NCBI GenBank assembly: GCA_947034885.2
Contig: OZ019759.1
Span: forward strand, 2,501 to 66,500
Source of the DNA: Thuidium tamariscinum
Lineage: Eukaryota > Streptophyta > Bryopsida > Hypnales > Thuidiaceae
Direction of reading: 5' to 3'
Length of the DNA stretch: 64,000 bases
Part shown: in pieces, positions 7,073-59,399 of the stretch
Numbering within the stretch: position 1 is the stretch's first letter
How the letters are laid out: each line of letters starts with the position of its first letter
Position numbers and translations under genes: made by a program
Notes under the pieces: generated by a model
What the model was told of the DNA's origin: nothing
Databases searched by the model: none
What the model saw: the letters and a program-made list of their open reading frames with translations, nothing else

Positions 7073-7082
7073 GGCCATAAAT
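7073..7082. repeat. Left target-site duplication of E1 (GGCCATAAAT)
   Basis: The ten bases match 37980-37989 exactly and sit directly outside two related inverted termini 30.9 kb apart. A perfect 10-bp match at just these two places is unlikely by chance. An 8-bp reading (CCATAAAT) would move the right end by two bases. Confidence 0.65.
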
Positions 7083-7215
7083 CAGGGTTGCTAGCAAGCG
7101 AGCCTAGGAGCGTGAGCCTATGAGCGGGAAATTTTTTGTAGAAAAATTTTCATTTTGGACCTATGATCGAGGATAAGGGAAGGGGGTCTCATGACCGTGG
7201 TTTAGGATTTAGGGT
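7083..7215 (+). repeat. E1 left terminal repeat with GTGAGC subrepeats
   Basis: It starts CAGGGTTGCTAGC, followed by GAGCCT/GTGAGCCT/TGAGC subrepeats, a T-rich stretch and CATGACCGTGGTTTAGG (7190-7207). The same order recurs at 55103-55240 and, inverted, at about 37795-37979. That shared order identifies it as an element end and not local sequence. Confidence 0.6.
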
Positions 7216-7418
7216 GAAGTTTATCAATCAATTCCAGTATGAATTTGGGATTTAGGGGGGAACGCTAAAATGTTTTTGATTGAAGTATAATTCATAGCAT
7301 AAAAAATGAAAATGAATACCATAAAGTACTAAGATGTAGCCATAAAACACACAAATCCAACCGTAATGGAAGGCAACACACAATAGTATGACTCACGGAA
7401 TATGTCAATTCCGTGAGT

Positions 7419-9605
7419 CTAAAATGCTGAGGACTTAGTCTCAGAATGAGAACTTTTTGATGACTCAGAAGACTCTCTGCCCTCAGATGTTGACCCATCT
7501 ATAAATTGTAAAACATTTAGGGCATATGTGTCTTTACGACATTTTGGTTTAGAGGAACCAAAGGTCGCAAAGGCACTTGCCATTTCCTCTGCATAGATGG
7601 GAAGCTTGAAGAGCTTTTGAGGACTCAAAAAAACACTTGGCTGTAGCATGTTGGCATCCTCCAACATCAATCCTCAACGACTGCAAACCAATATACACAG
7701 AGTTAGACTTTTCAGTTGATGAATTCAACATTCAATTCACTAAAAATAAAAAAGTTCCAACTTACTTACTGAATTTTCCTTTGCGAGCGAATTTCCGGGG
7801 CAACAATGGCAATTCGTCTGGATCCTGTGACAAGGCTATAATTGGTGCGGGTGCTACAGTCTCCATCATTGTTGTAGTGGACTTCTTCATGGGTTTGAGT
7901 ATGGCGTCGAAGATGTCCTTGTTCTCTTCCAAAGCCACAATGTGGCAGCCTATGGCGCGGCAAACAATAATACAAGCCCCTAGACAAGCCACAAACACAC
8001 ATTGATTAGTTCACTCCATTTTCTGTTGACATCATATTGAATGGAGAGATTTGGAAGAAGACACTAACCTGTGGATGCAGTGCAATCTAGAACCAAATCA
8101 CCCTTGCTACTAGTAGCTTCGAGGAGGATTTGGAAGAAGCATGGATCTTTCTCGCGTGCCCCTCTCTATGGCTTTGCACCTTTCATCACCATATCGTCCT
8201 CATGAGTGTAGTTCATGAACATGTCGTCTCTAGCAATGTCGACACCAGCCTTCTTCATAGTGGTGGTGCGCTTGAAGGAAAAATTGGACTTGCTTTTGTC
8301 TTTGAGGTCCTTGATAAAGAGCGTGATCCCAAACTTCTGTGTCTGCGGATGAGGTGAGGCAAATGTTGATTAGAAATGCATTGGAAGGTGATCATGATGT
8401 CTGATTTGCAGAAGCCAAGATAATGGAATGGAGTTTACCAACTTTTTCTCGTCGATGGCAGAGGTCAAGTGCATGCGGTTCATGCCCATCCACTCCTTCT
8501 TGACCATGTCATATACGTCGCACAATGCAGCAATGTTGCTCCTTGATTTGATGCCGTATAAGTGGAAGACAATGACGCAGCCGTCGTCATGGAGATGCTT
8601 GCACGCAAAGCTGAAGGCTGACTGTAGAGCCTCATCTCCCACGTCTTTGTTCCAGTCGGGCACATCATCTTTAGGAGAAGACAATCCTAGAACAGGTAAG
8701 TTCTTAGGGCAGTCGAAGAAGACGATGTCCACCCCCGGTCGAGCATTCCGCTGCCCATGAAAATATCTCGTTTTTGTCGTGGACACCTGCCAACATGAAG
8801 TACATTAGCAAATGAAGAAGTAGCATGCACACTATTGATGTTGATGAGACAAAATGTCTTATATGACCAACTTCAAGTTTGAAGTGAGTACCTTCCTGAA
8901 GAAGGCCAAGACTTCTTTGTAAGAAGTGGGATTATTAGAATCCATGTCTTCCACGAGTTCCTGGATGGAGACGTTGAGGATCAAGTCCTCGGACTTGATG
9001 AAGTCCTCATCAGTGAGAGGAATCCCTGAGATACATGAGTGATGACCTCCTCCGCGAGCTCTGACAAAGTGGCCTTCCTCTTGACTCCACTCTGAGCTCC
9101 GACCTATAGTTGAGAGCCTTGGTCAATTGTGGAGGACGCTAGGACTTGGGCGGTCGCCTCTGCCTTCTTCTTCCCTTTGTTGTTGGCCTTTTCCTCCTTC
9201 TCCTTCTCCTTCTCGGTAAGCTTGGCAAGCCTCTCCGCTTCCTTTTTCTCCTTGGCATCGAGTAGAACTTGGACGTGAGCTTTCTTCTTCATGTTGTTAG
9301 CATCCCTCTTCTAAATGGCTTTCCTCCTCTGCCTGTCCGTCAAGCTAGTGAACTCGTCCACCTCCAGGTCAATGGCCCCTTTTCCCTCTAAGGATTCCCG
9401 TAGCTCTACCTCGAATTTGTAGGTGAATCCCACAAAGCAGTCCAAGTACCATGCTCCTCCACTCAGATGAGCAGTGGTGAACGTGCGTAGCTGGTTCGCG
9501 GAAAATATGCAATCTGTGGAGTTGCGGTCCAACCATGAGGACAAGAAAGGTGGCAAGTCCCTTTGTTCAATTGCCCCCTTTCCTTGGAGCTCATACTTGA
9601 AGTAC
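7419..9605 (-). pseudogene. ParB-methyltransferase-like gene, 3' half (E1 copy)
   Basis: Exons, in reading order, lie at about 9605-8892, 8786-8439, 8342-8069, 7979-7770 and 7675-7419, with GT-AG borders matching those of the copy at 55.8-58.9 kb. The first exon encodes an aromatic block (LRTFTTAHLSGGAWYLDC) and a Lys/Glu-rich coiled coil. The second has FFDCPKNLP and FACKHLHDDGCVIVFH, which align with motif IV and the following strand of N4/N6 DNA methyltransferases. The third and fourth join as LVLDCTASTGACIIVCRAIG followed by CHIVALEEN, matching the SAM-binding end of the fold (usual form VLDPFAGSGTT). Stops: TAG after KAI (about 9313-9315), TAG near 9107 and TAG at 8166-8168 (the paralogue has TGG). 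A frameshift falls near 9020. Disabled copy. The 5' half lies at 25.6-32.6 kb, beyond the CACTA insertion. Confidence 0.6.
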
Positions 9606-9698
9606 CTGCCATGAGGACCAAGTCAAGGTATGAAGAGAAGTAACAAAGTCTAGCACCCAATGTCTTCCTTAGTTTCAAATCACTATAAGAAACCATCG

Positions 9699-12139
9699 TT
9701 CTTCGTGACAAATGGTAGAACTTCAATTAGTGATTGCAAAAACATCTTGCTCTGTGAACAACGATATCACCCAAAATCCCTTTGAACTGACATGTAGAAA
9801 ACAGGGCTTGATTTCAATGAAGCGGCCATCCAACATGCCTGTTAAACTACAACAACAAGACAAACAACATGTTTACAGCCGTTTTGATTTCAGGGCTGGA
9901 TCAGGCCACGTCACTGCTGTTGTGCAAAAAGATTCTGCCACGTGTCTCAAAATTTTGGCCCGCCCTGCCCCTCCGACAGTAGCTGAAAAAGGAAAAAAAA
10001 GGGACCTCCTACTCACGTGGCAGCTGCTCAGTGGCGCGTTCCGGCTTCCACATGAAGCCAGTGCTGTTCGACGCTGCGCCTGCTTTGCCGTTCAGATTAA
10101 TTCAAGCACGACTTCAGTAACGTTTTTCTTCACAAAACAGGAATGTGGCTTTCATGCTTGCCTCGTCAACACTGACAGGCTTCTCAAACAGAACCTATGC
10201 GTCCTACAAGCGCTTACTGCTCTACTGTGCACCTCACTTTTGTTCAGGTCGTCTGAATTTCTTGCGTTCTACATGGAAAATGAACACATAGTGGTGGACT
10301 GTTCATAGTGCTGGTTTCTGTAAACATTGGTACTGCCAGGTCCTCAAGATATTTCGTTGATAAATGCTCGTGTGGATGGCGAGACAAACGCATACTGTAC
10401 TGCGGTTTAACTTCTTTGACTTCCTCATGAGGACATCTTACCACTAATTCTGTGTAAATCGATCAATCCATGGAGCACGTCGACCGTGATCCTCGAAACT
10501 TCATGGCACTGTTCAGAAGCTCACGGTCACTGCTCTGTGAAACATGGATTGACAGAAGGAACGCCTACTTCGCTTAAATTGTGACGTCTTCGCAACACGT
10601 CTGAAATGTCTACAGTAACGACACCTCGCTGCGAACTGTGGCACGTTTTACGTTTTCGTGGACACCAGACAGAGCTTCGTAGGTGCTACTGCTCCTGTTC
10701 ACAAAAACATTGTCTTCCACCTCAGGGGAGGACGTGCTCTCTTTCACTGGATGCGGTGGTACTTCATTTCCCATGGACATGCAACGCGTACTAGAAAAGA
10801 AGTCTTCCTGGGCTATGCTCTAGTACTTTGACACATGGAAGCATACTCAAATGAAAAGCAGACTGCCTTCCGATTCAGGCATAATTGTAGTGAATCAGTG
10901 CAGGTAATTCACAGTGACTTACAATCACAGACTCCCATGAATACAGCAGACATCGGTGAGACTGTTGAGAAAACAATGTTGTTCTGTACAAGCTGTGCTT
11001 TCCTTGGCACTTTTTACATTAAGAACCTCTGCCACACACATAAGGGGATGCACCCTTCAGAATCCAACGTGGTAAATGAAGTAAACAGAATTTTTTTTTT
11101 GTTTTACTAGCCTCGCGATACCTTGTTCATAGGTCGAACTCAGCACCTACAAGTTGTACATGAGCGGTTCAGCACCTTCTTTTTCACAGCGCGCATGGAC
11201 GTACAAAAAGGCTTGTGCATGCATATGACATACCATATGCAGGCTTGCCCAAAATTGACTTCGTTACCGTTGTCATGGCACTCCCTGCAGCAAAGCAAAG
11301 CAGAACCACAGTAGCAAGACGGCAGTTAATTTGCTTGAACTGTTTCGAAGCTCCCATTTGTTTACACATGTGCACAAACAAGCAACATGAAATCGATGAA
11401 GACTATTGTTTGCTCAAACGGATCTTCCGTGCACCGGTCAAGAAGCACACTCAATACATGAACAGAATCTGTGCATGGAGTAAGACTTCGCTGAGTAGTG
11501 TGACTGGCTTATGCCCAAAAAATGAGGATACACTCACTAACCCGTCTGTTTGAGAAGCCTCTGCTGTCACTTCTTCTTCAATAGCTTAGCTTTCTTCCCA
11601 TTCGGGACCTACAACCACAGACAATTCAATCCATCAGGACCTCTGACCCTGTTGTTGCCTTCCTCGGCCAAGTGCTGCTATAGTTCCACTGAACTAATGG
11701 AACTGCTTCAATGAGTACGACTGAAATGTGCAACCACATTCTCCTACCAGACACAGATGATCACTATTCCAATACAAATTCTCAGAGGAACAGTACTGCT
11801 TGCTCTCAACAAGTTAACAGACCTTTCCATTGGTGCTTCTTGTCGACTTTGGCAATCCACCTTGAGGCAGTGCCTTCGTCAGTTGCGACTGCACAAACAC
11901 CCGTCGTGGACGTGACGTGGGCTCCACTGCGACTTCCTGCTACTTACATTCAGTGCACAAACTTCTGAATTAAATAACCGACTCTCCGGCACACGGTCAC
12001 TAAAACAGTCACTGCATTCCTACTCACGAGCAATGACTAGCAAGAGTGACTTCAAGTACGACAGCAGCCACAGTCATACTAGATTCTCCATATTCGAGTG
12101 CCATAACGCTCTTGTGAATGACGACCTGCCTCCATGGAT
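9699..12139. other. CACTA left subterminal region, no gene recognised
   Basis: This stretch has many short open frames on both strands but no motif I recognise. It is rich in short recurrent words such as ACTTC, GAAGT, TACAAC and their complements, the look of CACTA subterminal repeat regions. The open frame at 9712-10308 is not convincing as a gene. Confidence 0.4.
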
Positions 12140-15100
12140 TCATCTGTACATCCTCAATAACTTGGCACTCACCGCCTGTGACAATGATGTGGCTGTCATT
12201 TTTCTGCCCGGCGACGCCAACGCTTCACGGTCTCCCGATTCCGGCATGACCTGGTGCACCACTTCATTCTGCATGTCATCGCCTTCATCGTTGACGATAA
12301 TTGTGTCTGGTGATTTCGCTACGACAGGCAAGTCCAGACCTTCATCTGGATCTTGCAAGAGCGTCTTCAGAAATTCTTCGACCTGTGGATCCGACCCGCC
12401 TGCTTTTCGAACTGAACCGCCACCGTCGCCGACCTGCTCTTCTGTGGAGTCGGCCACACCCGTCGTGCCTGCTTTCTGTAGGGTCACTGGGTTCAATCGG
12501 GACGGCGTGTTATGCTCGCTGCACTGACCTGCGTACTCTGTAACCTCAGGAGACCTCAGAATCGGGCTGCCACTCCGACGTTCTTGACGTACCGATGCAA
12601 TCTTTGATGCCAGCAAAGCCTTGAACATTTCTTCCGTTCGGAACTGCGAGGTCAAAATTTTCTCTTCCAGCCTCGAAACGAGATCTTCCATGTCGAGAAC
12701 ACGAGTACGCACGTCATCCATGTCACAGCCCTTCTGAAGCGCTGCCTTTCTTTTCTCGAGCTGCTGTCGTGTGTACTCACGTGCTACTTCGTCTGTGATT
12801 TCAATTTGATAAGGCTTACGATTGTGCTGCAAAGTCTGCAATGCATGACAAGATGAAACAATTACTGTGAACTGGTTCTTGAATGGGGCTAATATATACA
12901 ACTGCAACGCTAAGTTCACAGTACTCACTCTTTCAATTCGTGGATTGAGAACGCTCAGATCATGTGCCTACCACTTCCGTCACACAACACACACGCTCTG
13001 AAATGTGAGTTCAGGCTCCTACTAGAAACTATCATGACGCTCATGATTCACAGCACTTTCTCTTTCAAAAAACGACTTCTTCACAGTATCTTACCAGTTT
13101 GACGATTGCATCTTTCTCGATCGCTTTTAACTGGGCCAACTTCGAGCCCTTCCCCTGCGAAATTGACCTCATGTGCTCCGACAGAATCTGGGAATCCTAC
13201 GTCGAACGTCTACGAACAAGCAGATTCCACTGCTCCTGAGTCACATCTGCCAACTTCAACTGTCCAGCGTCTATTAAGGTGTTCAATCTCCAGCGAGTGG
13301 TGATCAAGACCTTTGTGCATATTGGCCGAACCCACTTCTTGCTAAGCCTGAACGACTGACCGAATATGTCCCAGTCTGCATGAATACACACCGATGAACC
13401 ATTAGATTACGAGCGTTCTCACATCTCATAACACTGCACACCAGTTCAACAACTCATGTGACCATACAAGGCATTGCACAAGCAGAGTGTTTATTATACA
13501 GTACAATTCTATGAACATGGCACAGTACGATGGGAATACTTCTTGACAAAGTCCCAGTACTACACTTCAAACGTTCAGTAATCATAGAGGGAGTACAAAT
13601 TCTGGGTATAGGACAGCTGACCCTTGTATAAGCGCTTGAAGAGCTGAGATCTCAACGGTGATGGCTACAACTCCCAATTCGCAGTGGGATCCAAACTCTT
13701 CGCATATTTCTTAATATCATCTGCTAGACACTCCTTCATGTTGCCCCACGGCAAGCCATTGATGTCAAGAGTGACGGGTTTTTTGAGGACTGTACCTCGA
13801 ACTTCGTGGCATGGGGTCTGAGTCCGACCCACTTCCGTCACTGCCTTCTGAGGCGTTGTAATCTCCATCCAAGTCCTCTCCAGCGCTTCAGACCAAACAA
13901 CATGGCAGGAATCAACGGTCAGTACATGTACATGCTTCTGGAAAAAGTCTCGGGGATGTTCACTTCAAACTGCAGTGCCACATGTTTCACTGCATGCACG
14001 AGTGAGTAACATTTCTTTCGTAAATACTGACTTCGTTACGTCACTATACATGCAGCGATAAGATGAGGGGTCAGAGTAGAAAAGTTCAATTGGACACAGG
14101 AGTGTACAACATTTTCGCGGCTTCAATGGAGTATAGAACCCCGCCATCACTAAATTGTACATCGTCCTCCCACTGACTGTAGCATGCTCATGCCATGCCG
14201 TATGAAGCACTCTCCAACAAAGTCGGTAAGTCGCCAGGCAGTTACAAGTCAGAAAGAACATGCAAGACCACTACGACCGTATGAACGGGGGCTCTTCACA
14301 ATACGTGCTACCTCGGGCTCAATGCTTCATTTGGGCAACTTCAACGACATGGGTAGCAAGTATTTGTCTTCTCCTTTCTGTTCTTTTTATAACTACTTGA
14401 GCCCTACTAGCTTCACATCTACCAACACCTGCCTATATCCACTTCAACCTCATGGGGCATCTGCGTTGTACAACTCTGTTGACATAGACGTCAAGCAGAC
14501 TTGATTTGCCCAATATGTTCAACACACACACACCACAAGTACAAAACGACCCAGTTCGAGTGTCCCGAGGTCTTGCATTGCAAACAACTTCAGAGAACTC
14601 ACCTCTAGTCACGATCATCCTCAGCATCTTCGTAGGAGTCTGAATCGGAACGGCCGCAATGAAACGGCTTCATTTTCTTCAGTGGAGGTGTCTGCTGACG
14701 CAATTTGACCTTCCCTTTACCCAAGCCTGATGTTGGCCGGTCATGTGCTACTTTACTTCTCCTCCCAACATCTGAGCGCACTTGCATCTCCTCCTCACGA
14801 CGATTTCCCTTGTCGGCTCCTCCCTCCGTCCTGGACATGGCAGTCCTCTTCTTCACCGATTTCGTTGCTGATCCACCTATTCTGAGTCGAGATGGAGGCC
14901 ACTGAACAAAACACTTGCACCTCTTCTGCAAAGTGGTGACAGAGGACTTAGTTCATGCAGTTCACTACATGCAGGTCTGAAACATGAAAAGCTCTCATGA
15001 CTTGCCGCGGACAGCACTCCCACTACCAATTTACAGATGCGTCTTCCATTTTCCAGCGTTGACAGTGCACTGTACGTGACCACAACCGATGATGCACTTG

Positions 15101-16202
15101 ACAACAGCCATGAACGACTACAACGAGGTTCACTGAATTTCCTGCTTTATGAAGCAATGACTAGCTTGAAAACAGATCGAACTCTTCCCCATGATCAGTC
15201 AGTACAGGTGTTTAAGCAAACGTGAATTCCTTGTGAGTCGGATTTAGCAAATTGAAAACGATCGAACACTACTTCTTCCTCACACGTTGTACATTCATGT
15301 TCCACTCTAGGTACCAGTACTGGAGCAGCACTCCACGCAAGTCAAACAGACCACTCAAATTCACGCGAATTGTGACCGCAAACGAATGACAGTTACCCAA
15401 AAAATTCCAACAAGCTGCGTTCTATATTAAGAATGCATGACTACAGCAGTAGCGTTACAGGCCTCACAAGTAGAGTTCCGGAATGCAATTCACAACGACT
15501 ACTCCAAATGCCAATGTGGTGCGCGACACTCCTTGTCACCGAAAACGTCAAGACACGCTAGTCTGTGATTAAGTGATGACAGAGGAGGATGAAAGCAATA
15601 CCTCCTTCTTCATATAGCCGTCATAGAAGCATGTATTTACCTAAAAAACCTAAGACCGTTCACAGCGCATGCTACTCCCACCTTCTAACCCATGTCCGTG
15701 ACGCCAAATCCACTTGCTCAACATCATGTCATCACATCCATGGGTGTAATGCATATGTTACAGCACTATGGAGTGTGCAGTCCCAAAAGGAACGCAAGAC
15801 CAGCATGGCAACGTGGCATTGGCAAAGACTGCTGATCATTCAATGCCTGATACGTACCGGAAGTTCACGACCTATTGTTGGCGGCGTCTCTCCTGCTCCA
15901 CTTCTTTCCGAAAACTCAGTTGGAGTGGCACTTGCTTCCATGCCATCTTGTGACCGCAATCCCATGCGCCGACTTGTCATCAGCAATTCGCAACCGCAGT
16001 AGTCTGTCCTTTTTGAGGCGTTCGCTGCTTCCGAAGCTAGGTGCGTGACGAAATACTGGAAAAGACTAACTCCTTCCTCACTAATGTCTGTGTCGCCTGC
16101 TTCCGATCCTGGCAATTCCTGAGAGGCTTGGACTTGTGCACACTCACTCACAGTAACACTGCGGACCTCCATGACTCCTTCTTTGCCCCATTGTAAAAAC
16201 AA
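12140..16202 (-). pseudogene. CACTA TnpA-like accessory protein gene (multi-exon, one stop)
   Basis: Coding-like exons on the minus strand are at about 16202-15840, 14931-14605, 13868-13665, 13391-13095 and 12840-12170. The third has LPWGNMKECLADDIKKYAKS. The fourth has DWDIFGQSFRLSKKWVRP and LADVTQEQWNLLVRR, then, after an in-frame TAG, SEHMRSISQGKGSKLAQLKA before a GTAAG donor. The last is a heptad-rich coiled coil (VREYTRQQ-type helix, RLEEKI) with an acidic tail ending at the stop at 12140. Spacing of Trp and basic residues resembles the TnpA/Transposase_24 class that binds CACTA subterminal repeats. The second exon is strongly basic (KKRTAMSR, LKKMKPF) and may hold a nuclear signal. Exon borders are approximate. 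The TAG near 13180 suggests loss of function. Confidence 0.5.
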
Positions 16203-19200
16203 AACCTTTGCAATAGTTAGGGTTTACGCACTGACTACGCAGTGGTGAGACAGTGGGCTTCACCAAGGTCGCTAGCGCTCCGGTGTTCGACACGTGGCGT
16301 GGCGATGACGTCAGCGTCAACGGACAACGCCGTTCACCTAGGCTTCAGTGCCACCACTGTATTAGCACCGCAGTGGTATACGTCGCTGCAGACGCGAGAG
16401 AAGTAGTCCTACAATTCAGGAGCTCCGTCTTCTATTCTGAATAGTGCAATCAGGAACCTCGGTAAAAGTAACAGACGATCATGAATAGTGAAGCACGGTA
16501 GTGCCCTGTAGTCCACTATAAAGGACCATGAGAATTTTTTTGGGAAGCCTTTCGATGCGTAAGGAATTGCTCTGCCGGCTGTCGCGTCCTGCGCAAGGAA
16601 TGTGCCCAACTGATCAGGCCACCGGTCTGACATTCGTCTTGATCAGGATTTTCATTTCACAAAGGAAACTGAGGTCGTCAAAGTAATCCCTTCCCATTTG
16701 GCATAGCCGCAGCTCTGTATCTCTCCAATTCCAGTCTGCCATGGGAAATTTCCACAGCTACAACAGTAGCCTACTGCAGCTTCCTCTCTTTCTGATGAGG
16801 AATCATGGCGGGACATAAGTCTGAAGACTTGGGTATAACACTATGAAACTGCTTCACTGACTACGGAATTCCCAACCCTCCGCCATACTAAACGTCTGTA
16901 TACCTTTCAGTTTCTTTCGCTCTTATTCTGTGGCACTTCATCAGTCGACCTGAATCCTGATTTCAAACTTGGCAAACTGAATGTGCTCCATGTCATTGCA
17001 GTTGGGGACTACTCAACACTGGATGCGTCCAACTTCTCCTGCACCGACGACAGGGAGGTCAGTTGAGGCTCCTCCGATCTGGTAACTCGTCACTACTTCA
17101 CCTCATTTTCATGATCCTGTCTGCTGTACACAGAGCAAGTGTCCACTGTATGTGTTCTTGTTGAAGACTGCAGGGAACAGTACCGAACCAAATAGTGGGA
17201 ATGCCGTAGTCCAAGCTACCGAAAGACTGCCTTCGAAGAAGCTACTGGAATCCAGAGACAGTGTTGGACATGGACCCGACGAGCAATGGAGAGGACAATC
17301 ACCTGCCCTCTTATTATGACTTACAAGTGTACGAGGATGCTCATGATTGGTACTTACAAGACCTCCTCTTTCATTATATGGAATACATGTCTTGGTACAA
17401 CTTAGGTTTTGTGCGCACCAAAAATTTCTTGCCCGACAGCTTGAATGACGTTTACAATAACAACCTGTATTGCATGTCTTGGTTCTACAATGGTGTTTTT
17501 CCCTTTGACACTTGGGAAGAGGACTATGATAATTGGCTTTATAACCTAGTGTTTGCGGACATGGCCACTTGTGGCAGTGACATAGAGTCATCAGCTTCAA
17601 CGTTGTCTTGAAAGCTGAATACAGAGCGCTTTAGCTTCAGGGAAGACTTGCTTCAGTTTCGCTTCTGCGAAGTAAGGATGCACTCCCACTGAAGTAGACT
17701 GGCAGGGAAGTGGAACTTCACCGTCACTCCAATTCAGCAACTTCTGAAATGCCAGAACTTCCTCGTTTAAGTACATTGTGTAGAAGCTTAACTTGGTTCT
17801 TCATCTTCTGCAATTACCGTACTCTGCTTGGTAGGATCGGAGCAGTACTAGTCCAATACAGGAATGGTAGTGTTCGACCTCATTCTAGGGTAGACAGTCG
17901 AAGACCCACTTGCATTGCGTTGTACCAGACTACTCCCAGTGAGGTCTCCTCACCTTCATCAGAAACAAAAAAGCCGCATCCTTCTATGAATTAGCAGTAA
18001 TGGGATTGCTTGATTTGTTGTATGGACCTGTCAAACGAAATAGGGAAGTCGTTTGTCAGTTCATTCAGTGCCCTTGTTTCATCCTGAACGACTCTGCAAT
18101 CCCTTTGGCAATGTGCTTGCTTCCATTTCTTTGTTTGGGTTTGGTTTGTTCGAGAAGAATTTCTAAGCAATTCTCTATTCGCTTAAATGTACTAGTGCTT
18201 CACCTCCATGTGTCGAGCACTGTGAGCAACTGTAAGGTTCCAGTTGAAGCTTGAATGAGACTGTCGCTCAGGAAAGGCCCGTGACCGATGTGTAATTCAT
18301 TCCACTTAGGTCACCAACTCAGTCCTCTACATGTCCAAGTTGAAATTCAATGCGTCCATGACGAAGCCATCGTCCTGGGCTCCCCTTCATGAGGTGAATG
18401 ATTCTCTCATACACCTGGAATCTTCAGATGTGATTTTAGGTGCAGGCTGTGATAGGCAGTGATTCACTTGCTTCATGACTTTGACATGAAAAGGCTAGCA
18501 TGTTCACTACAGGCTTTAGCAAAATTTCACATATTCACGGAGTACGGTGGAGTTCATTACAAGTCAATGGAACAGTTGTACAGCGTCTTCATATGCGAAG
18601 CCGAGAAGAGCCATCGAGAGTGGAGAGTGCTGTCAATTCTCGTCCTCCATTGAGTTCTTCTCAACGGAGTTAAAAACTTCCCTTGCAATGTTCATGCACT
18701 AGGGACCCGGGTAAGCAACTCTACAATAATGTACAAGGGTGCTTGGATCAAAAATCCATTTTTGAGCTGATTACCCTAATAATAATAAGTGAATTCTTTG
18801 ACTAAGCCTAGGGTGATATCATATAATAATTCAAATTTTATATGATAAGGTATCATATTTAAAGTAAAAACATACATGTAACTCAACTATTGTCTCATAT
18901 AAAATACTATAACATCTATATTCTTCTAAATCAAGAAATAAAATTTATTTTATGATTATTAATAATTTGAAATGATGACCTACCCTGTAGACGAGCATAC
19001 CTATATTTCTGATTTCACTTATGATGTGCTTACGATTGGTCATAACTTACATAATACATTTCTATTTTCATTAAATGTTACATCATTGGATTTGTCTTTT
19101 AAAGCACCTTCACAACAAAGTTTTTATTTTATAATCCTAAACACTTAGAGTAACTTATTATGCATTTGAAGTTTTTGTAAATAAATTTTATTATCATAGT

Positions 19201-25474: not shown

Positions 25475-25916
25475 AATGGTATGACATTCCATAACAAGCA
25501 TGAAAGAGTAGTGAGTGACATGGTCCAAGGATAAGACAATTGATTTCAAGAAAGCATTGACCAATGTTAGAAGCATACCGGAAAAGAACTCTTCGAACCA
25601 CTAGGTTGGAGCCTTCGTAATTCATGAATGAATCTCCTTTCTTGAAGTTATTAGCACCTTTGAAGATAGGTCCGAATCCTTGGTCCCAGATCTTCCTCCT
25701 CCATCCCTCGATGTAATCTAGCAAAGCCTCAGGCTGTTGCGGAACATTCATGTCAATCTTGAGATTGTCATGTCTGACCACCCCATCGAAGTATTCGACT
25801 GCAGCATCCTCGATCTGTTCAAAATGTTGCTTAGAAAGAGAAGTCCATTTCATGCACGAAAACTCTAGATGCAAAGAGAGTAGCCACAAGCACTTCCATC
25901 CAAAAAAATACCAACA

Positions 25917-26132
25917 CACTAGTAGAAACCCCCGTTTAATGTGACAAGGCCTAATTTTTCTTGACAGATTTTGCTAGGCATCAAAAGTAACAACCCGTGT
26001 TTTTATGTCAGCATTGATGTTGTATTGAACATTTTTGTTGACATAAAAACACAGGTTGTTACTTTTGATGCCTAGCAAAATCCGTCAAGAAAAATTAGGC
26101 CTTGTCACATTAAACAAGGGTTTCTACTAGTG
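25917..26132. mobile_element. 216-bp CACTA-type foldback MITE
   Basis: CACTAGTAGAAACCCCCG at 25917 is mirrored by CTTGTTT...GGGTTTCTACTAGTG ending at 26132. The two ~94-bp arms pair along their whole length with only about four mismatches, around a ~28-bp loop. The 3-bp flanks ACA (25914-25916 and 26133-26135) are identical. The ends differ by two bases from those of the large CACTA at 9681 (CACTATAAGAAACC), so it may be mobilised by a related transposase. It lies in an intron of the methyltransferase-like gene. Confidence 0.9.
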
Positions 26133-28636
26133 ACATGAATGTAAGATGGTGTAAGCAAATTCACTTAACCGTGCATACCAAACGCATTTGTTGAGGAATG
26201 GTCCAAGGTGTGATTCAACGACTGGTTTGGTTGGGAACTTCCTTGCATCACGAGACGGACCGGATGCGTTCCACCACTTGAAGAACTTGATTTTGTGGTA
26301 CGGCGTGGTGTTGCACGTGGCCACCATCTGTAGTTTCTCGAGTGTCATTTCGGGCACCTCATTGGAGCTCCAATGCCTTTCCACTTGGACAACCACGAAG
26401 CCATTGAATTTCATTTTGAATGCAAGGGAGAACGACAATGAGAGAAGACATGGTCAGTGAAGCGATGCTACTGACCTCCTCAAGGAATCCCGTTCCATGA
26501 GAAGGATTGGCAACGATGAGGAGCTTGATCATCTTCACGTACAGTTTGGCATTCTTTTCCTTGGCTTCCACTTTCATGGAAAGAGATTCCCCCTCTACGG
26601 TTTGGTTCTCATATAGGGTCGTCTCCATATACCTCCAAAGCGCTCCATTTGCTGCCATGGAAATCTCTTACTGTCCATTCCCACATTATTTCCAAACGTC
26701 AGCAAATGTAAGAAACCAAAGCAAAAACAAAAAATGGAGAGCACATGCAAAGGAGGGGCCTTGAGAGAGTCTTACCTTGAAGACGAAGGAGGTGAAGACC
26801 TCTGCAGGCATGGAGTACCACGTCCTTCTTGCTAGGTGTGCAATACATTTGTTTCTCTCCGAGGGCCTAAGCATTTCATTGAACCTCTCCATGGGCAGCA
26901 GGCCATACTTCTGCACCCAATAGAGAGTGTGTACGAGGTTGGTTTTGATGTGTGAGTCCTTTGTCGATCTGCACGTTCCATCTAACTTAAATAAGTAAGG
27001 AATAGTTTGGCATTGTGTAGAACGCTATGCAGTTGGAAAATAATGTATGTAAGACAAGTAGGAAAGAGAAGAGTTGTCTTGATGCACCCACTTGTTAATG
27101 TCGTGCATGACCTGCATGACAAGCTCAACTTTCCCCTTCGTGTTCAAGAGAATGCTGTCCACTGCATAGTACTTTTCATAGTTGTTGGCATGCATCCTAG
27201 AAATGACGTTCGTCCATATAAGGAATCTGTGGTTTCCATCACAGACAAAGAACTTGGAGTTCTTGAGGTATTGGAGAGCTGGATCAGCATCCAAGATATC
27301 TTTGAACTTTGCATTCTTCTAATTCCACAGAGGGCTCTACTCCTCCATTTCCTCCTTGGTGAATTGCGAGGACTTTTCCATCTCATTGGTGGTGGACACA
27401 TAGAAGACGGTTGCGCGGTCCTGATATCCACCTGTGAATTCCTTCTCAAGGAATTGGATGTCGCATAAGAGGGTAGGCCTTACCATGGGCATGGCGACCA
27501 TCCTGCAAAGAGGAATGGAGAGTCGGAAGGTTTTCTCAAGCTTCATCCTCAAGGCATTGATGGTGGCAACAGAGTCCACCTTTTGTAGCCTCCAGAGGTC
27601 ATCTTCCATGAGGTCCTTCTCTTCATCGTCAGCCATGTCATCTCCCCCTAACATCTCTACGTCCTCTTCAACCCCCAATCTAGGTTGGCTAAAGTCTCCA
27701 TCCTCCCTAATGTCCGGTTGGATCTTATCTTCGCTTCTCAAAGTCTCTATGATTTTGTCTTCTTGCCTTTCAACTCCCGGTGTGACATCCATCTGTAAAT
27801 CCAATTCGATCACTTAAAAAGAAAAGGGACGTTGAAGGAATGCACAAGACATCAATGGTCCTTAAGAGCCAAAGTAGTGAACCTTTTACATCAAAATTGA
27901 AGTCCAAGATGACTGGTGTCTTTATTGCCAAAAAATGGTCACTGAGTAGTAGGCTCAAGGAGCTCCAAAAACAACATGGGTAAGCTATGGCACCAGTCAA
28001 GTACTAACAACATCAACCTCACTGTCTGTGTCTGAGTCCGGGCTGAGAATAATGATGAGCTCTCCCTCGAAGTGCACTCTACCACTATCACTTGAGTCAC
28101 TCAACTCCTGCAACTTTGGACTAACAATGGAGGTGTGCGTCTGTGGCTCCAAGCTATACTCGGTCTCAGAACTCTCAGGAGAAAATTGGGCCCTCTTGTG
28201 CTTGCGAGTGAATCCGGCAATAAGGTGACTTGGCCAATTGGTATTGCGATTGAGCATGGAGACATCCAAGGCATCTGCAGCACGACTTGCTGCACTCATG
28301 ATGTCCTCAAATCTTACCAGATCTTCTTCTTCCTCTTTTTCCTCCTCATCATCAGAATCGCCAACCCCTTTGTCATCATCCTTGGAAGTTTTTGCTTCAG
28401 ATGCACCTTCTTCATCCTAGGCTTGTGCATGTAGACCATGGCCCTTGAAGTTGGCAACGCCTTGATGAGCATCATCGTCTTCACTCTGATATGCCAAACA
28501 AGTAAGAAATGAGTAATGGCATTCCAAGGATATACCTCATACCATGTACCGAAATCTGATTCAAAGATAATGGGACCCCACCCCGCAGTGTGGCCCAAGC
28601 TAAATGCCCCAACCACAATCCAAATTAAAAAAAACA

Positions 28637-31310
28637 ATGTCACCTCGCGGCGTGGCGCGAGGTCTTGTCGGCCACCACGTGCGTGGCGGGTTGTGGTGGC
28701 CAAGCCCGCGCCCCCGAGACGTTGTCCTCGTGATGGTCTGGTCAACTAGTGACTGAGAGGGACCCGAAGAGTGTGACCTCGCAGCATGGCGCGAGGATGG
28801 GTGGCCGACTGGATGTGTGGTGTGGGGGGCGCGGTGGCCAAGCCCGAGCCACCTCGAGCATTGTCCTTGTAATGGTCTCGTCACGTGTTGACTCCGAGGG
28901 ACCTGGATTCGGAGGTGGCACCAACGCCACCCCACCCATCAGTCGGCGCCGACTACGGGTCCCCGCGGCCTTTGTGGCACACCCAAAATTGAGACCCAAA
29001 CAAATTCAAATTTTTTTTCTAAGTATGTGAGGTACCTATCTCTCTCCGAGGACCTTACGCAAGCTGCGCTTGACAAGCTGGATGCCCCAATTACAATCAA
29101 AATTCAAAAAAAAAGGGTGTGACCTCGCAGCGTGGTGCGAGGTCGGGTGGCCACATGGTGTGGGGGAGGTCAGGGTGGCCAATCCCGCGCCCTTGAGCGC
29201 TGCCCTCGTGATGGTCTGGTCTCGTGGTGATAGAGAGGGATCCCAGATTTGGGGATCATCGCGGCCGGGGGCCCGGTCGAGTAGCCGCGAGGTGGGGGGG
29301 TCGCGGTAGCCAAGCCCGCACTCCCCGTGATGCTGCCCTCTTGATGGTCTGGTCATGTGGTGACCGAGAGGGACCGGATTTGGGGTGGCACCAATGCCAC
29401 CCTATCCATCAGTCAACGCCGACTAGGGGTCCCCGTGGTCTTGGTGCCACCCCCACGACTGGGACCCCGAACAAATCATTTTTTTTCCTAAGTATGCGAG
29501 GGACTTAGTCCACCTCCGAGGACCCTAAATGAGCTGCGCTTGACAAGCTGGATGCCCAATCCTATTCAAAATTCAAAAAAAAAAAAAGTGTGACCTCGTG
29601 GTGTGGCGCGAGGTGCGGATGGCTGTGTGGGGGTAGGGGGTCGCGGTGGCCACACCCGCACACCCCGAGCGCTACCCTTGTGATGGTCTGGTCACATGGT
29701 CATCAAGAGGGGCCCGGATTCAGGGGTGGCACCAACGCTACTCCACCCATCAGCCGGAGCCGACTAGGGGTTGAGGCGACTTTGGTGCCACCCCTCAAAT
29801 TGGGATCCCGAAGAAATCAAATTTTTTTTCTAAATACGCGAGGGACCTAGTCAACCTCCGAGGACCCTAAGAAAGCTGCACTTGACAAGCAGAATGCCCA
29901 ATCCCGATCAAAATTCAAAAAAAAAAGTGTGACCTCGCGGCGTGGCACGAGGTGCAGGTGGCCGTGGGGGGTCGCGGTGGCCACACTTACGCACCCCGGG
30001 AGCGCTGCCCTCGTGATGGTCTGGTCACGTGTTGTTGAAAGGGACCCGGATTCAGGAGTGGCACCAGCACCACCCCACCCATTAGTCAGAGCCGACTAGG
30101 GGTCGGGGCGGCCTTGGTGCCACCCCTCAAACTGGGACCCCGAAGAAATCAAATTTTTTTTTCAAAGTATGTGAGGGACCTCGTCAACCTTCGAGGACCC
30201 TAAGCAAGCTACACTTGACAACTTGGATGCCCCGATCTCAATCAATTTTTTTTTTTAAAAAGGTGTGACCTCACGGCATGACGCGAGGCTAGGTGGCCGC
30301 GTGGTGGGGTCGTGGTGGCCGCACCTGCGCCCCTGAAAGCGCTGCCTCATGATGGTCTACTCACGTGGTGCCGAGAAGGTCCCAAATCTGGGGGTGGCAC
30401 CAACGCCACCCCACCCATCAATCGGAGTTGACTAAGGGTGGGGGCAGCTTTGGTGCCACCCTTCAAATTGGGACCCTAAAGATATCAAATTTTTTTTTCT
30501 ATGTACACGAGGGACCTGGCTCCCTCCAAGGACCCTAATCGAGCCGAGCTTAACAAGCTGGATGCCCAATCCTGATCAAAATTTAAAGAAAAAAAAGATG
30601 TGACCTCGCAGCGTGACGCGAGGCCAGGTGGATGCATGGTGGGGGGGTCGCAGTGGTCGCACCCGCGCCCTCGAGTGCGCTGCCTTGTGATGGTCTAGTC
30701 ACGTGGTGCCAAAAGGGACCCGGATTCGAGGGTGGCACCAACACCACCCCACCCTTTAGTCGGAGCCAACTAGGGGTCAAGGCGGCCTTGGTGCCACCCC
30801 TCAAACTGGGTCCCCAAACAAATCTGTTTTTTTTTCCTAAGTACGCGAGGGACCTGGTCAACCTCCGAGGACCCTAAGTGAGCTATACTTGACAAGCTAG
30901 ATGCCCCAATCCCGATCAAAATTCAAAAAAAGAAAAAGGGTGTGACCTCGCGGCCGGAGGCAGTTCGGGTGGCCGCTTGGAGGTGGGAGGGTCGCGGTGG
31001 CCAAGCCTGCGCCACCCCACAATCTCAGACCCCGAACACACTCAAATTTTTCTTCCTAAGTACACGAGGGACCTGGTCTCCCTCCGAGGACCCAAGCAAG
31101 CTATGCTTGACAAGCTGGATGCCCAATGACGATCAAAATTTAGACAAAAAAAGGGTGTGACCTCGCGGCGTGGTGTGAGGCCTGGGTGGCCACGTGGTGG
31201 TTGGAGGTCGCGGTGGCCAAGCCCGCACCACCCTGCAATCTGAGACCCCGAACAAACTCAATTTTTTTTTCCTAAGTACGCGAGGGACCTGTCTCTCATC
31301 GAGGTAACTT
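28637..31310. repeat. Satellite array, ~9 units of ~335-349 bp (some truncated or enlarged)
   Basis: Units open with GTGTGACCTCGCGGCGTGG at about 28637, 28771, 29117, 29588, 29927, 30263, 30598, 30940 and 31155. Each full unit then holds a GGTCGCGGTGGCC block, TGATGGTCTGGTCACGTG, GGTGGCACCAACGCCACCCC, GAGCCGACTAGGGGT, an A/T homopolymer, GTACGCGAGGGACCT and CTTGACAAGCTGGATGCCC. Regular spacing is 335-342 bp. The 29117 unit is enlarged by an internal repeat; the first and last units are short. It is GC-rich against an AT-richer setting. It sits between the 5' exons of the methyltransferase-like gene, inside E1. Open frames here are by-products of the GC-rich repeat. Confidence 0.9.
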
Positions 31311-33125: not shown

Positions 33126-36100
33126 ATGGAAATGGCCTGCATCAGAGTAGACGATCACGAGGTTCCCCTTGTGTTTCCGGTTCATGATTAGGGGAAGGCT
33201 AGGGTACTTTGTCATCTACTACATGTCCGCTTCAAGTTTGTAGAGCGATCAATATACGTTGAGGAAGAAAAAAGGTCCAACACTAGTGACCTAGTGGAAT
33301 CGATTCCAATCGAAAAGTCTGTAGAGAATGATGGACACTGTTGGTACCTAGCCCCGGGAAATTATAGAGCTTTCGGACTGCCCCTTGCTATGCTAGTCGC
33401 CTCCTTAGAAATTGTGAGTAGACAATCAGCGGCATCCAGTGTAGATATGCCCTATAATCCAAACGCGCTTTTACCTTCTTCACCCCACCCCCCTTACTGT
33501 TCATGTCCTACCCAGGAATGCACCTCTCTATCTTGTCAAGGTAGAGAAATTGGATCCCATTGTATAGTTGTCTAGCAAATCTGAAGTAGAATCCCTAGGT
33601 TTGAGATTGCAGAGGACACCATCTTCCACACAAACTCTACTAGACACGAAGGCTAAGATAGAATCCACGCGAAGCACACCGTCCAACACCCCATCACCAT
33701 CACTATTCTCTCGCCGTCCACTACACCCGTACCCAATAGAGAGAGTGAACATCATGGACTGCTTGAAAAGACTAGCATTGATGCACCGCTCTAGAAATGA
33801 ATTGTCGTCCATGGATTTCACATCCGTGAAACACCATTGAGTCCACTTTCTACCACCACTCTTCAATGGTGACGTCATCTTTGAGTTGCCTCCTTGTAGA
33901 TCATCTTCAACCTCTTCAGTTGCATGGAATTTGGAGGGAATGGACAAGCGATACGACGGACATCCGTGGTGCAAGCTGGTCACGACAAACATCCACATTT
34001 TCGACAACCTTAAATTCTGTAAGGCATACTGCGCTGGTCACCTTGCTTGTGAAAATCCTGATTGTAATTTCTTTAAGAGGGCTAGGAGGAAAAATGAATC
34101 GGAGTGGACTGGGTATACTATGTTTCCTTTTGTGGTCAAAGAGAGTCCTCCCAAAGACTCTACCCTAGCTTGCAAGGTTTGTAGGACGACACCTATGTGC
34201 CTCACCTTGTGCCAGGCTAGGATGTACTACTCGTATAGCGACAAACCAAAAATGAGTAGGGCTGCCATTCATCTCGGAGTCCATGCCCATCCTATAGCCA
34301 AGGGAATGTACAGAGATTCCGTAGAGAAAATTAGTGGGTTCATTGCGGAGCAGGTGGCAAAGACACCCATGGCCACCAACTCAGCTATAGCCCTCTCTGC
34401 TAGTAAAGACTTCCTCACAAACTACAACTTCCACAACGGAGAAGGTGACAAGGAGATGCTGAAGGAAGAGGAACTGGAAGAGGTCACGGATAGATTCCAA
34501 ATTCTAAGTAGTCCAAACATCAGGAATGTCATATCTTCGTTTCGCACAAACAATCAGACTGGGGTCATCGACAACATCATGACTATGAAGAAGCACTCCA
34601 AGTTTGAATTCATACACGACAATGTCTTTCCTGGACAAGGGAAGGAAAAGGTTTACATTTTCAAGATGCTCACGAAGGGACCCGGAAGTGGAGTGGACCT
34701 CATAAAACGAATGCAGCCTGGTAGGAACTTGGAGAATGCGTGGGTCATATTTGACCATTTTAGGCGCATCCAAGAGTGGAGTACTATAGTATGCCACGTG
34801 TACGACCCGGAGTACAAGAAGGTCATAACCATTGCAATGTCTGATATGCAATCCGAAGATACCGAGGTCCAAGTACAGTTTTGGAGGAGCTTGAATGTAG
34901 TCATGGCACGACATGGACTGAAATACACGAATTTCAAGGGGTTCATGGCAAACAGCGCTATGGCCAATTGGAGTGGGGTTTGCATCGTCTATAGAAGTGG
35001 TATCGCCAGTGAAAAAATGGAGAACCGAGAAAAGATGTGTTTGCTACAATGGAGTAGTTTGCTTCATAAACACACGCAAAAGCACATCAAGGAGCCGTTC
35101 CAAAAACAACACATTCTGCTTTGCAAACAATACAAGGATTCAAAGAACATGGATGAAGCGGAGACACGGTATCTCGCTATTCACTCGTGGTGGTTGTCCT
35201 CCGGAACAGCATCAAAAGATGTACTTCATCACTTGGACCATTGGCTAGCATTCTGGCATTTTCGATATAGGTAGTGGGGAGGTTTTATGGACATGGTGAG
35301 CTTCTACATCATACAAAACCATGGAACCCATTTTTGTTTTCTCAATGAGTGTTCATAGGTACAATGGTCTACTTAATTGTATGCATTCATGCATGAAATA
35401 GTGAACCAAATATGTTTTGTAGTCTTATATCTTATGCGCCTTGGTCCCGAATTTTTAGATCTAGTTCACGGAGAGGGACCCTAATCGAGGGGTCGCTCCA
35501 AGCACTAGTGAATCCTTAGTTGGAGCCGACTAATGATTCCATGGCGTCTACAGTGACTCCTCTTTCTAGGTCCATTACTGAAATTTAGTGGCTTTTTAAA
35601 CCACGAATGTTTTGAAGACACTACAACACTAAACAAAGGTTATTAAAAACTCAAAAATTATTTGTTTCTAGAGTGATTGAGTTATCTTGTTGAGAGTATG
35701 GAAATGTATGTTAGAAACACTCAATCTCATAGCATTCCTTTGCTTCAATAGAACTCTGCACCCTAGTACCGCCTTCAATGTAGGAACAACTGTCACTACT
35801 AACTTCTTGCCTTATTGTTATGAATCCGTAGAAACTGAATTTGGAGGAAATGGCCAATCTCCCGTCATGCAATCTATCCGAAACAGTCCATAATAAGTGG
35901 CTGCAAATGTCCAGGAAGAGAGGAAACAATCTCTTTGATGCCACTTGTGATGATAGTATACGTGCTTGGATGCAAATGACTAACTACCATGCGTACCTTA
36001 GAGGTCATGCATCCGGTAGTGGTCCATCTAAGGGTGAGATTAGGTTGAGAGTTGCAAGGCGTAGCAAAGATCCCAAAAAAATAGCGAAGGTATTGAACAC

Positions 36101-36863
36101 GTTGCCTGGGGCAGAGGGGGTCAGAACAAAGGTGCCGCATTTAGAGGAAGAAGAAATCTTTGGGAGCACCAAGAAGAAGCTAGACGTACCCATTGGCGAT
36201 GCTAGAGACTTATACAGACCGGACAAGATCAACTTCTCACAACCAAGGGTAATGACCAGATCCACCACTGCTTCTCTACTCTCTTTGCAGGGACCAAGTC
36301 AACTGTCCGAGGATACCACCACTCGATATGTTGCGATCATATATGAAAGTGATTGCGACACATCCAAGTGGCACATTGCGAGGATCTCCCACAAATCGAA
36401 CACAAGATGCCAAGCTCAGCAACAAAGGACCAACATCAAATGCACTACCAGAATTGCCAAAGGGAGCAAGGGGACACCGACTCCCACCTATCGAGGGAGG
36501 AAGCAAGACTACGGGAGTAAGAGAAAAGTCGTTGCGGATTTCTGGTTCTGTTGGGACGACATTGAGCGATGTGTCAAAGGGACGAAGCGAGCATGGGTCA
36601 TTGATTGGCCCGAGGTCCTGGAGGTTTGGCCGATTTTGACAGGGACGAACTTGAATCGAGAAGAAACATTGCTACTTCAACATGCAGGCTTCCGACTCCA
36701 AGATCAACCAACACTTTCACCACGTAGACTCTTTACCATGTCAAACGTTTTCAAGATAGTCTTGTACAACCAACCAGTGCCCCAAAATCCGGATGAGTAT
36801 CCAACAATTAGGAACAACAGACCCATCCGCAGGATTGCAAAGGCACCAACAGTTGAACATTGA
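33126..36863 (+). pseudogene. MULE/GCM1-type transposase-like gene of E1
   Basis: The coding-like frame starts at ATG 33126 and shows stops TAG 33189-33191, TGA 33838-33840 and TAG 35272-35274, with at least one intron in 35.3-35.8 kb. Around 33960-34230 a Cys/His cluster (CKAYCAGHLACENPDCNFF, then CKVCRTTPMC) resembles the GCM1/WRKY-type zinc finger found in Mutator-like transposases. Later, MSDMQSEDTEVQVQFWRSL and KYTNFKGFMANSAMANWSG (about 34845-34980) look like the ED-W and second-acid region of a MULE DDE core. An Asn stands where an Asp might be expected. The C-terminal exon (about 35841-36863) has SETVHNKWLQMSRKRGN and FGSTKKKLDVPIG, then a basic tail. The role would be E1 transposition. 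Family assignment rests on motif likeness only. Dead copy. Confidence 0.5.
35455..35575. repeat. Diverged fragment of the 28.6-31.3 kb satellite unit
   Basis: GAGAGGGACCCTAATCGAGG, GTGAATCCTTAGTTGGAGCC and GACTAATGATTCC in this order match the middle of the satellite monomer (GAGAGGGACC, CAGTCGGAGCCGACTAGGGG). It sits in an intron of the transposase-like gene, so the array may have grown from sequence already present in E1. Confidence 0.5.
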
Positions 36864-37794
36864 AACAAGTGGGAGAGTGCACGAAATGTTACGGGCCAAA
36901 TTCTGGGAGTGATGCTACTCCCCTTTCCAAGACTTGGTGCAATAGTCACCCTAGAGACTGGGACAGATCCAAACAGAAATACTTATCAAGTGACAGTGGG
37001 TTTGTTCCCTAGCTGCATATGCCCAGATTTTGTCAATATGGCAGTTGCTGCTATAGGAGGTCGCCAACAGTACGTGAACTACAAACACTTATATTATTTG
37101 TATAGGTTTTTTTGCAAGATGGATGTGCACGAAGACAAGTTCATTCATGCGCCTAGTTATAGCTTCAATGAGTTGAAGCTACTTCTAATTTGAGCCGGAA
37201 TCATCACACTTCCAAAGTAGGCGTATAGGCATTTCCAAATGCTTTTCAACCATTTGTAATGAATTTGTTTCTTATGCTATTATTGAAATGATTTCACACA
37301 TATGGCATTTAAAATGGCTTTGCATTTATTCAACTACAAGTTCACTCTTACTAGCCACGTGTAACATTTATTACCGTATTACAATGAACTCATGCCTAAA
37401 CCCAAATTCATTTTTTACTGGAATGACTAATTGAAGATCCACAAAAAAACCCTACCCTTTTTCATGACTACCATTCATCTTACACCAACCCTCAAGTATT
37501 GTTTTTATCAATGCAAGTCCTCTTATACTGCAAAATGTTTAAAATTTTAGTAGCTAAGGGATATTAGAATTTACAGAATTTGACATTGAGTTCACTTGAA
37601 TCTGAAACCACTAAACAATTTACACAAAATGATTGGACTAAACTATGCTTCAAGCGTTTGATCTAATTTATTCTACAACCTTGATCTAAAAAACTCAATC
37701 TTTTCTCAAACATTAAAATTTGTGAGCGTATAGTTCTTAAGAAATTAAACACCCAAACATGTAAAATTTAACACCACCCACGCTTATAGGGGCC
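36864..37794. other. E1 3' non-coding region
   Basis: After the transposase-like stop at 36863 a coding-like tail may continue to about 37193 (LLPFPRLGAIVTLET and NKYHVT-like spacing), but I cannot join it with confidence. From 37.2 to 37.8 kb the sequence is AT-rich without a gene and leads into the right terminal repeat. Confidence 0.35.
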
Positions 37795-37979
37795 ACGGTC
37801 ATAGGTAAAAAAACCGGTAGAAGTAGTGAGTTTTTTGAAAAAATTTATAAAAAAATGAAGCCAAAAATTTTTTTTAGGCAAAAATATCCTGAAATAGTTG
37901 TGCTGGAGGCTCTAGGCTCACAACTTCACGCTCACAGTTCACAGGCTCACCGCTCCAAGCTCACATGCTAGCGTCGTTG
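37795..37979 (-). repeat. E1 right terminal repeat
   Basis: Read on the minus strand it starts CAACGACGCTAGCATGTGAG. It carries several GTGAGC/GTGAGCC subrepeats and ends with ACCTATGACCGTGGCCCC, matching the order at 7083-7215 and 55103-55240. The outermost seven bases differ from those of the left end. The following ten bases (37980-37989) repeat 7073-7082. Confidence 0.6.
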
Positions 37980-59355: not shown

Positions 59356-59399
59356 GGCGGTCAACAACTTGAATTTCTGGATTTAGGGTTTTCAAATAA

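Follow-up and report, generated by a model that had tools for sequence, protein, structure and literature searches.

The element and its genes

We analysed a 64-kb window of Thuidium tamariscinum DNA (the whole stretch studied, to which all positions refer). At 7083-37979 it contains a unit bounded by terminal inverted repeats (TIRs) and a target-site duplication (TSD) that encloses a transposase-like gene and a divergent gene with ParB-like and N4/N6-methyltransferase-like parts (Table 1). Exon matches to both genes inside these bounds back the initial annotation, which had placed the pair between the termini. The ParB-methyltransferase gene lies within the DNA transposon on the strand opposite the transposase, and a G+C-rich tandem array, putatively part of the element, sits between the two genes. 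All three gene copies in the window (the transposase and both copies of the ParB-methyltransferase gene) carry stops or frameshifts. Very probably the unit is what decay has left of a giant TIR transposon with two genes, about 15 kb long without a later CACTA insertion. Because this 15.8-kb CACTA element splits an intron of copy 1, the ParB-methyltransferase gene is far longer there than in a 7-13 kb reading. A search of Rfam gave 0 matches.

Table 1. Features of the element and of the second gene copy (window positions).
Feature	Position	Strand	Details
Left TSD copy	7073..7082	.	10 bp, GGCCATAAAT
Left TIR	7083..7125	+	CAGGGTTGCTAGC...GTGAGCCTATGAGC
Left-end subterminal motif	7160..7200	+	two copies: CCTATGATCGAGG, CTCATGACCGTGG
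ParB-methyltransferase gene copy 1, broken	7458..27792	-	exon matches in separate rows
Copy 1 exons past the CACTA element	9188-9607, 8892-9026, 8442-8735, 8067-8342, 7879-7977, 7458-7610	-	
Motif I region	7879..8342	-	DCTASTG, intron, then ACIIVCRAIGCHIVALEEN
Motif IV exon	8442..8735	-	FDCPKN in place of DPPY
Nested CACTA (En/Spm) transposon	9681..25474	+	in copy 1 intron; ends CACTATAAGAAAC; TSD AAT; tnp2 transposase domain
Copy 1 exons upstream of the CACTA element	27091-27792 (ParB), 26172-26384, 25581-25817	-	
Copy 1, two more exons	near 26.9-26.5 kb	-	mostly read by eye
ParB/Srx-fold exon	27091..27792	-	DGNHR box at about 27.2 kb; fold model made for relative P0050
G+C-rich tandem array	28628..31295	.	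units about 338 bp + 216 bp; palindromic motif CCTCGCGGCGTGGCGCGAGG
Transposase-like gene, broken	33132..37187	+	segments 33132-35304 and 35835-37187
Right-end subterminal motif	37778..37805	-	two copies
Right TIR	37937..37979	-	
Right TSD copy	37980..37989	.	GGCCATAAAT
Copy 2 terminus	55103..55217	+	TAGGGTTGCTAGC...; subterminal motif at 55205-55217
ParB-methyltransferase gene copy 2, broken	55850..58952	-	3' part only

Boundaries of the element

The direct repeat GGCCATAAAT is exact over 10 bp and flush with both termini. No random pair of positions reached this length in 20,000 draws (maximum 9; pairs 5-20 kb apart, with a slack of ±2 bp). The left and right termini (CAGGGTTGCTAGCAAGCGAG... 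and CAACGACGCTAGCATGTGAG...) align with a local score of 36, which none of 500 dinucleotide shuffles reached (maximum 31). The terminus of copy 2 scores 37 against the left one (0/500 shuffles, maximum 32) and 34 against the right one, a score reached by 1 of 500 shuffles. At one mismatch or fewer, GCTAGCAACCCT is found at 7084 and 55104 only in the 64-kb window. The subterminal motif CCTATGACCGTGG occurs five times at up to two mismatches, with 0.57 expected and no shuffle out of 100 giving five, and all five copies lie within the three termini and point inwards. The ten matches to GTGAGCCTATGAGC, a number reached by 2/100 shuffles, comprise four sites with at most two mismatches, every one in the termini, and six with three mismatches each, away from them.

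These controls sustain the matching inverted termini and the 10-bp direct repeat 30.9 kb apart that had been annotated, and we rejected chance ends on the combined grounds of the flush TSD, the terminal alignment and the confinement of the subterminal motif to the termini. It remains true that the TIR is short and imperfect, with a poor match between the two ends in the outermost 7 bp, as would be expected if ends and repeat were coincidental and there were no 30.9-kb unit; set against the exact, flush TSD and the motif restricted to three termini, such a coincidence is very improbable.

The second gene copy has its terminus on the 3' side of the gene, the same side as in copy 1, as the initial annotation had noted at 55103; the terminal alignments and the shared motifs agree with this. 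It has a single end within the window, and no TSD partner for this end was found: 8-10-bp matches occur elsewhere, but none adjoins the terminus directly and also marks a second end. In the window, tblastn with 16 relatives found neither a ParB exon nor a transposase for copy 2. The accessory gene shows purifying selection, as measured between the two strongly diverged copies.

The ParB and methyltransferase parts

From sequence evidence alone the identity of the ParB part is weak. The predicted fold of relative P0050, which is 79% identical to the window exon, is ParB-like and supports the domain proposed in the initial annotation. The N4/N6-methyltransferase-like part proposed there is likewise borne out, by homology to DNA methylases in profile comparison; the Pfam N6_N4_Mtase model scored 19.6 bits, under its cut-off of 26.7 bits. 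Both identities, ParB and, in the C-terminal part, beta-class methyltransferase-like, very probably hold. A structure model of relative P0001 had a pLDDT of 34.

Active N4/N6 methyltransferases have a motif IV of the form (D/N/S)PP(Y/F/W) and a SAM-binding motif I of the DxFxGxG type. The window family departs from the former: all five sequences (both window copies and P0001-P0003) have D[CV][PQ][EK]N, in strongly conserved surroundings that include its Asp and Asn. A DPPY elsewhere in the protein was considered and rejected, since the candidate, DLPPF, occurs in the two window copies (2/5) and is absent from P0001-P0003. Motif I reads DLTAGTG in P0001 and P0002 and DCTASTG in both window copies, in a region that aligns with DNA methylases, and DLTAATS in P0003, at the end of the ORF. 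The initial annotation had spoken of a DNA-modifying or modification-mimicking protein; because the catalytic motif is altered in 5/5 sequences, modification mimicking is a fair guess.

The transposase-like gene

Relatives of the transposase share two conserved Asp and a C-x2-H motif. The second Asp is present in 20/20 and the His of CxxH in 19/19 usable relatives, as judged by eye. At the candidate position for a third acidic residue, Glu stands in 15 of the 19 rows with a letter. The window copy has Asn for the second Asp, Gln for the His and, in its C-terminal SWIM-like finger, Tyr for one Cys (YKH). A SWIM finger is common, though not universal, in Mutator-like elements (MULEs); the pattern CxC-x(n)-CKH is found in P0004 and P0049, the sole 2 of 21 aligned relatives that cover the finger region. 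TIRs, absent in some MULE families, are present here as an imperfect repeat with shared motifs, and the TSD of 10 bp falls within the 8-11 bp given for MULEs in PMC6446971. The transposase seems to be Mutator-like with a SWIM-type finger, judging from TSD length, eye-read motifs and the SWIM pattern. These agree with its annotation as MULE-like, but no Pfam transposase model matched any of the 22 aligned members; a sequence search of the PDB gave no match for the transposase.

Searches outside the window

Pattern matches in viral contigs numbered 94 for the methyltransferase, 76 for the ParB exon and 71 for the transposase, with 0 confirmed; in prokaryote genomes, 0/59 (methyltransferase) and 0/22 (ParB exon) were confirmed. 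At the sensitivity used, tblastn gave no confirmed match to P0124 (ParB exon) in plasmids or to P0001 in phages. Two phage methylases were considered as candidate ParB fusions, those of Salmonella phage 9NA and of Rhodobacter phage RcAquaphina; no ParB domain was found in either. PDB sequence searches returned nothing, or only weak matches such as Rab-1A, a mitochondrial ribosomal protein and eL24.

Possible roles of the accessory protein

We think it probable, as the best explanation overall, that the unit is a decayed Mutator-like two-gene element whose ParB-methyltransferase-like protein guards its own DNA. The accessory protein would serve the element: its ParB part would bind the element's own DNA, perhaps at repeats, its methyltransferase part would be a SAM- and DNA-binding module and not a classical DPPY methylase, and the bound protein would mark or shield the element against host silencing, as VANC does for VANDAL. 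The anti-silencing role is a tentative proposal, somewhat short of an even chance.

ParB proteins of the plasmid type are not known to cut the DNA that they bind, which argues against the unlikely alternative that an NTP-regulated nuclease or nickase activity of the ParB part assists transposition or replication of the element. This alternative would draw on the ParB fold predicted here and on the nicking of DNA reported for the Bacillus cereus ParB-methylase Bce_0392 (PMC5512222). Somewhat more credible, if still rather unlikely, is an active methyltransferase that, guided by ParB, would methylate the DNA of its own element to give 6mA or 4mC, as proposed for the algal relatives. Its beta-class homology, the DxTAxT-type motif I and the conserved Asp and Asn of motif IV would fit, and the authors of PMC12477816 suggest that proteins of this kind bind the transposon that encodes them and modify it epigenetically; yet the Pro-Pro-Tyr of DPPY is replaced throughout, and the only other PP[YFW] is the one confined to the window copies. 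We also doubt that the methyltransferase-like gene was captured by chance, as a Pack-MULE-like passenger or a separate element with no stable pairing in the family: a strongly diverged second copy has the same terminus on the same side, selection is purifying between the copies, and a similar pairing is reported in algal transposons, even though there is a single complete unit and nested insertions are frequent in giant elements (both reports from PMC12477816).

A more specific form of the guarding element is improbable: a Mutator-like lineage with a ParB-guided pseudo-methyltransferase, its DPPY lost family-wide, which would be under selection, bind parS-like palindromic repeats between the two genes, spread or load there and shield the element from silencing. 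If true, a eukaryotic element would be using a partition-type protein to counter silencing. With its catalytic motif altered, the family poses the question of whether these proteins write a mark, or just recognise and guard their own DNA.

Relation to known elements

VANDAL elements of Arabidopsis with VANC are similar in combining a Mutator-type transposase with an accessory gene. To our knowledge, VANC has neither a ParB nor a methyltransferase part. The DNA bound by VANC is non-coding sequence of its own VANDAL elements, in which the targets are arranged as tandem repeats (PMC10398659; PMC6446971); in the window element, too, the two genes are separated by a tandem array. VANC proteins also remove methylation; for the window protein, binding to its own repeats and removal of methylation are putative.

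The initial annotation had presented the pair as new, knowing of no described plant element with it. Novelty of the pairing as such is not supported: according to PMC12477816, Sola1-1_Ec32 of Ectocarpus, a giant DNA transposon of 21.5 kb, encodes a 1104-aa protein with ParB-like and N4mC/N6mA methyltransferase parts on the strand opposite the transposase, the arrangement seen here, and earlier green and red algal transposon cases are cited there (Iyer 2011; Petroll 2025). The two elements are set apart, by description, by a Sola-1 transposase there and a seemingly Mutator-like one with a 10-bp TSD here, and by the motif IV altered in 5/5 sequences of the window family, the algal proteins being known by description. 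Among the literature matches listed, no title names a Mutator-like element with the ParB-methyltransferase pair.

Other elements have acquired DNA methyltransferases. Dinoflagellate and charophyte Klebsormidium retrotransposons carry DNMT, under purifying selection in Klebsormidium (Ka/Ks < 0.2); unlike the window protein, these enzymes act on C5 of cytosine and are encoded within the coding regions of retrotransposons, and in Klebsormidium their key residues are conserved (PMC5890265). Among prokaryotes, the same two-domain combination is found in ParB-methylase fusions of bacteria, for example Bce_0392 (PMC5512222). If the Mutator-like assignment holds, the ParB-methyltransferase accessory gene has one more transposon superfamily as its carrier, in addition to Sola-1 and to the cases from green and red algae, which would suggest its repeated uptake by unrelated DNA transposons. 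Repeated uptake by unrelated DNA transposons is reported for TET/JBP genes in fungi (PMC12730594).

Boundaries and organisation of the element

The initial annotation had described a unit bounded like a transposon, and its ends bear this out. An exact 10-bp direct repeat, GGCCATAAAT, lies directly outside both of them (Table). Among 20,000 randomly drawn pairs of window positions, 5–20 kb apart and with two bases of slack allowed, the maximum was 9, so that no pair reached 10. The ends are related, imperfect inverted repeats (local score 36, shuffle maximum 31 in 500 shuffles) that match poorly over the outermost 7 bases. The claim that a second copy of the ParB-methyltransferase gene has the same terminus on the same side also stood: the terminus of this copy 2 matches the left end of the unit with a local score of 37 (reached in 0 of 500 shuffles) and the right end with a score of 34 (1 of 500). 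A further motif, CCTATGACCGTGG, has five sites with no more than two mismatches in the 64 kb, where 0.57 would be expected; each of them faces inward and lies at most some 200 bases from the left end, the right end or the copy 2 terminus, on its inner side. The same termini contain all four sites of GTGAGCCTATGAGC with at most two mismatches; six weaker sites, with three mismatches, lie outside them, and the total of ten was reached by 2 of 100 shuffles.

The two genes of the unit, both broken, diverge outward from its middle. The ParB-methyltransferase gene (copy 1) is inflated in length because a CACTA transposon is inserted in one of its introns, which in copy 2 is about 0.3 kb long; without this insertion the unit measures about 15 kb. 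A relative, P0053, reads straight across the position of the intron that follows the ParB exon in the window gene, a hint that the source assembly contains a spliced transcript. Nine sites on the plus strand of the tandem array between the two genes match the palindrome CCTCGCGGCGTGGCGCGAGG with at most six mismatches, eight of them with at most three, and are not independent because they are parts of tandem copies. A tenth match, a weak one, is found immediately beyond the array.

Features of the element and of its surroundings (window coordinates)
Position	Strand	Feature	Remarks
2493-3242	+	DUF7869 domain (E 2.4e-37)	Lies within a broken gene with ORFs spanning 1674-4145, which possibly belongs to another mobile element
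7083-37979		Unit	Direct repeats at 7073-7082 and 37980-37989
27792 down to 7458	-	ParB-methyltransferase gene, copy 1	Broken
9681-25474		Nested CACTA transposon	Identical 13-base ends, AAT duplication (three bases), tnp2 domain
25917-26132		Foldback in copy 1 intron	Arms of 105 bp that are 92% complementary, with ends CACTAGTAGAAAC; possibly a small element of CACTA type
27997-28416	-	Acidic 139-aa ORF	Ends a short way upstream of where the ParB gene begins; without a Pfam match; possibly the tail of a third gene
28.6-31.3 kb		G+C-rich tandem array	Units of ~338 and ~216 bases; either part of the element or a later insertion
33132-37187	+	Transposase-like gene	Broken
45734-49429	-	1231-aa open frame	PB1 domain at the N-terminus (E 2.3e-16); probably a host gene
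55850-58952		ParB-methyltransferase gene, copy 2	3' part; terminus at 55104
58178-58255		78-bp palindrome in copy 2 intron	87% identical to its own reverse complement
59012-59380		Stretch with a dense GCGGACGG-type tandem repeat	Stretch begins CAGGGTTGACG; apparently inserted beside a copy 2 exon
60072-60743	+	SAD/SRA domain (methyl-CpG-reader type; Pfam E 2.6e-19)	~1 kb from copy 2; either a host gene or a captured fragment

One end of copy 2 is seen within the window, where tblastn with 16 relatives found neither its ParB exons nor a transposase. One complete and one partial unit lend thin support to the element's status as a family. In an alignment of 597 codons, from which stops were excluded, first, second and third codon positions are 72, 81 and 46 percent identical between the copies. 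With dN at 0.29 and dS at 2.4, the ratio of 0.12 (bootstrap range 0.07–0.18; 169 of 200 resamples yielded a value) is rough because dS is saturated. This pattern suggests long-term maintenance of the protein before both copies decayed.

The transposase-like protein

The search for relatives of the protein found 46, at most 74% identical to it, of which 21 were aligned with the window exon; the row of P0049 covers the C-terminal part only, is misaligned in the core and was left out of the core counts. The second Asp (in MADSA or CDSA) is present in 20 of 20 relatives and the His of C-x2-H in all 19 with a letter there. At these positions the window copy carries Asn and Gln, substitutions that very likely render it inactive. 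The candidate position for a third acidic residue holds Glu in only 15 of the 19 rows with a letter, which leaves the triad provisional. Both relatives covering the C-terminal part have a CxC-x(n)-CKH finger. Because none of the Pfam transposase models matched the 22 aligned members, the label "Mutator-like" is not proven and rests on duplication length, the motif order as read by eye and the finger; the typical duplication of Mutator-like elements is given as 8–11 bp (PMC6446971).

An altered catalytic motif in the methyltransferase part

The Pfam model N6_N4_Mtase scores 19.6 bits against the window copy and 19.8–22.1 bits against the relatives P0001–P0003, under its cut-off of 26.7. At E ≤ 1, these three sequences and the two window copies all match the phage DNA-methyltransferase family phrog_3008. 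An hhalign comparison of the five-sequence profile with seven annotated DNA methylases covers 58 columns around motif I at a probability of 97% (E 1.2e-10). Matches to single enzymes are weaker: 61% over 192 columns for Escherichia coli YhdJ, with DCQEN aligned to DPPYN, and 39% over 50 columns for the phage 9NA methylase. Motif IV reads D[CV][PQ][EK]N in all five sequences, keeping the catalytic Asp and changing Pro-Pro-Tyr, and no PP[YFW] common to the five occurs elsewhere in them; the five cases are not independent because P0001 and P0002 are 86% identical. Structure prediction for P0001 gave no usable model (pLDDT 34).

Judged by the chemistry of DPPY enzymes, the change of Pro-Pro-Tyr would suggest that ordinary methylation has been lost. 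Of the two main rival readings of this accessory protein, an active methylase is one that we regard as rather unlikely. Less probable still is the other, a nicking helper of transposition, for which a precedent is the DNA nicking reported for the ParB-methylase Bce_0392 (PMC5512222). The reading we tentatively place ahead of both is that the protein, with its ParB part recognising DNA of the element, would protect or mark the element against host silencing.

Relationship to known elements

The initial annotation knew of no described plant element that pairs a transposase with a ParB-methyltransferase. The pairing as such is not new: the kind is known from the description of the Ectocarpus Sola1 element (PMC12477816). 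This 21.5-kb element carries a gene for a ParB-like and N4mC/N6mA methyltransferase protein of 1104 aa, with the transposase encoded on the other strand (PMC12477816). Compared with that description, the Thuidium unit has what seems to be another type of transposase, with a 10-bp duplication, in place of a Sola1 transposase, and an altered catalytic motif in its methyltransferase part; these two features set it apart. Such accessory genes belong to a known wider class in transposable elements, for which published examples include VANC in VANDAL elements (PMC10398659), TET/JBP in fungal transposons (PMC12730594) and DNMTs in retrotransposons of a charophyte and dinoflagellates (PMC5890265).
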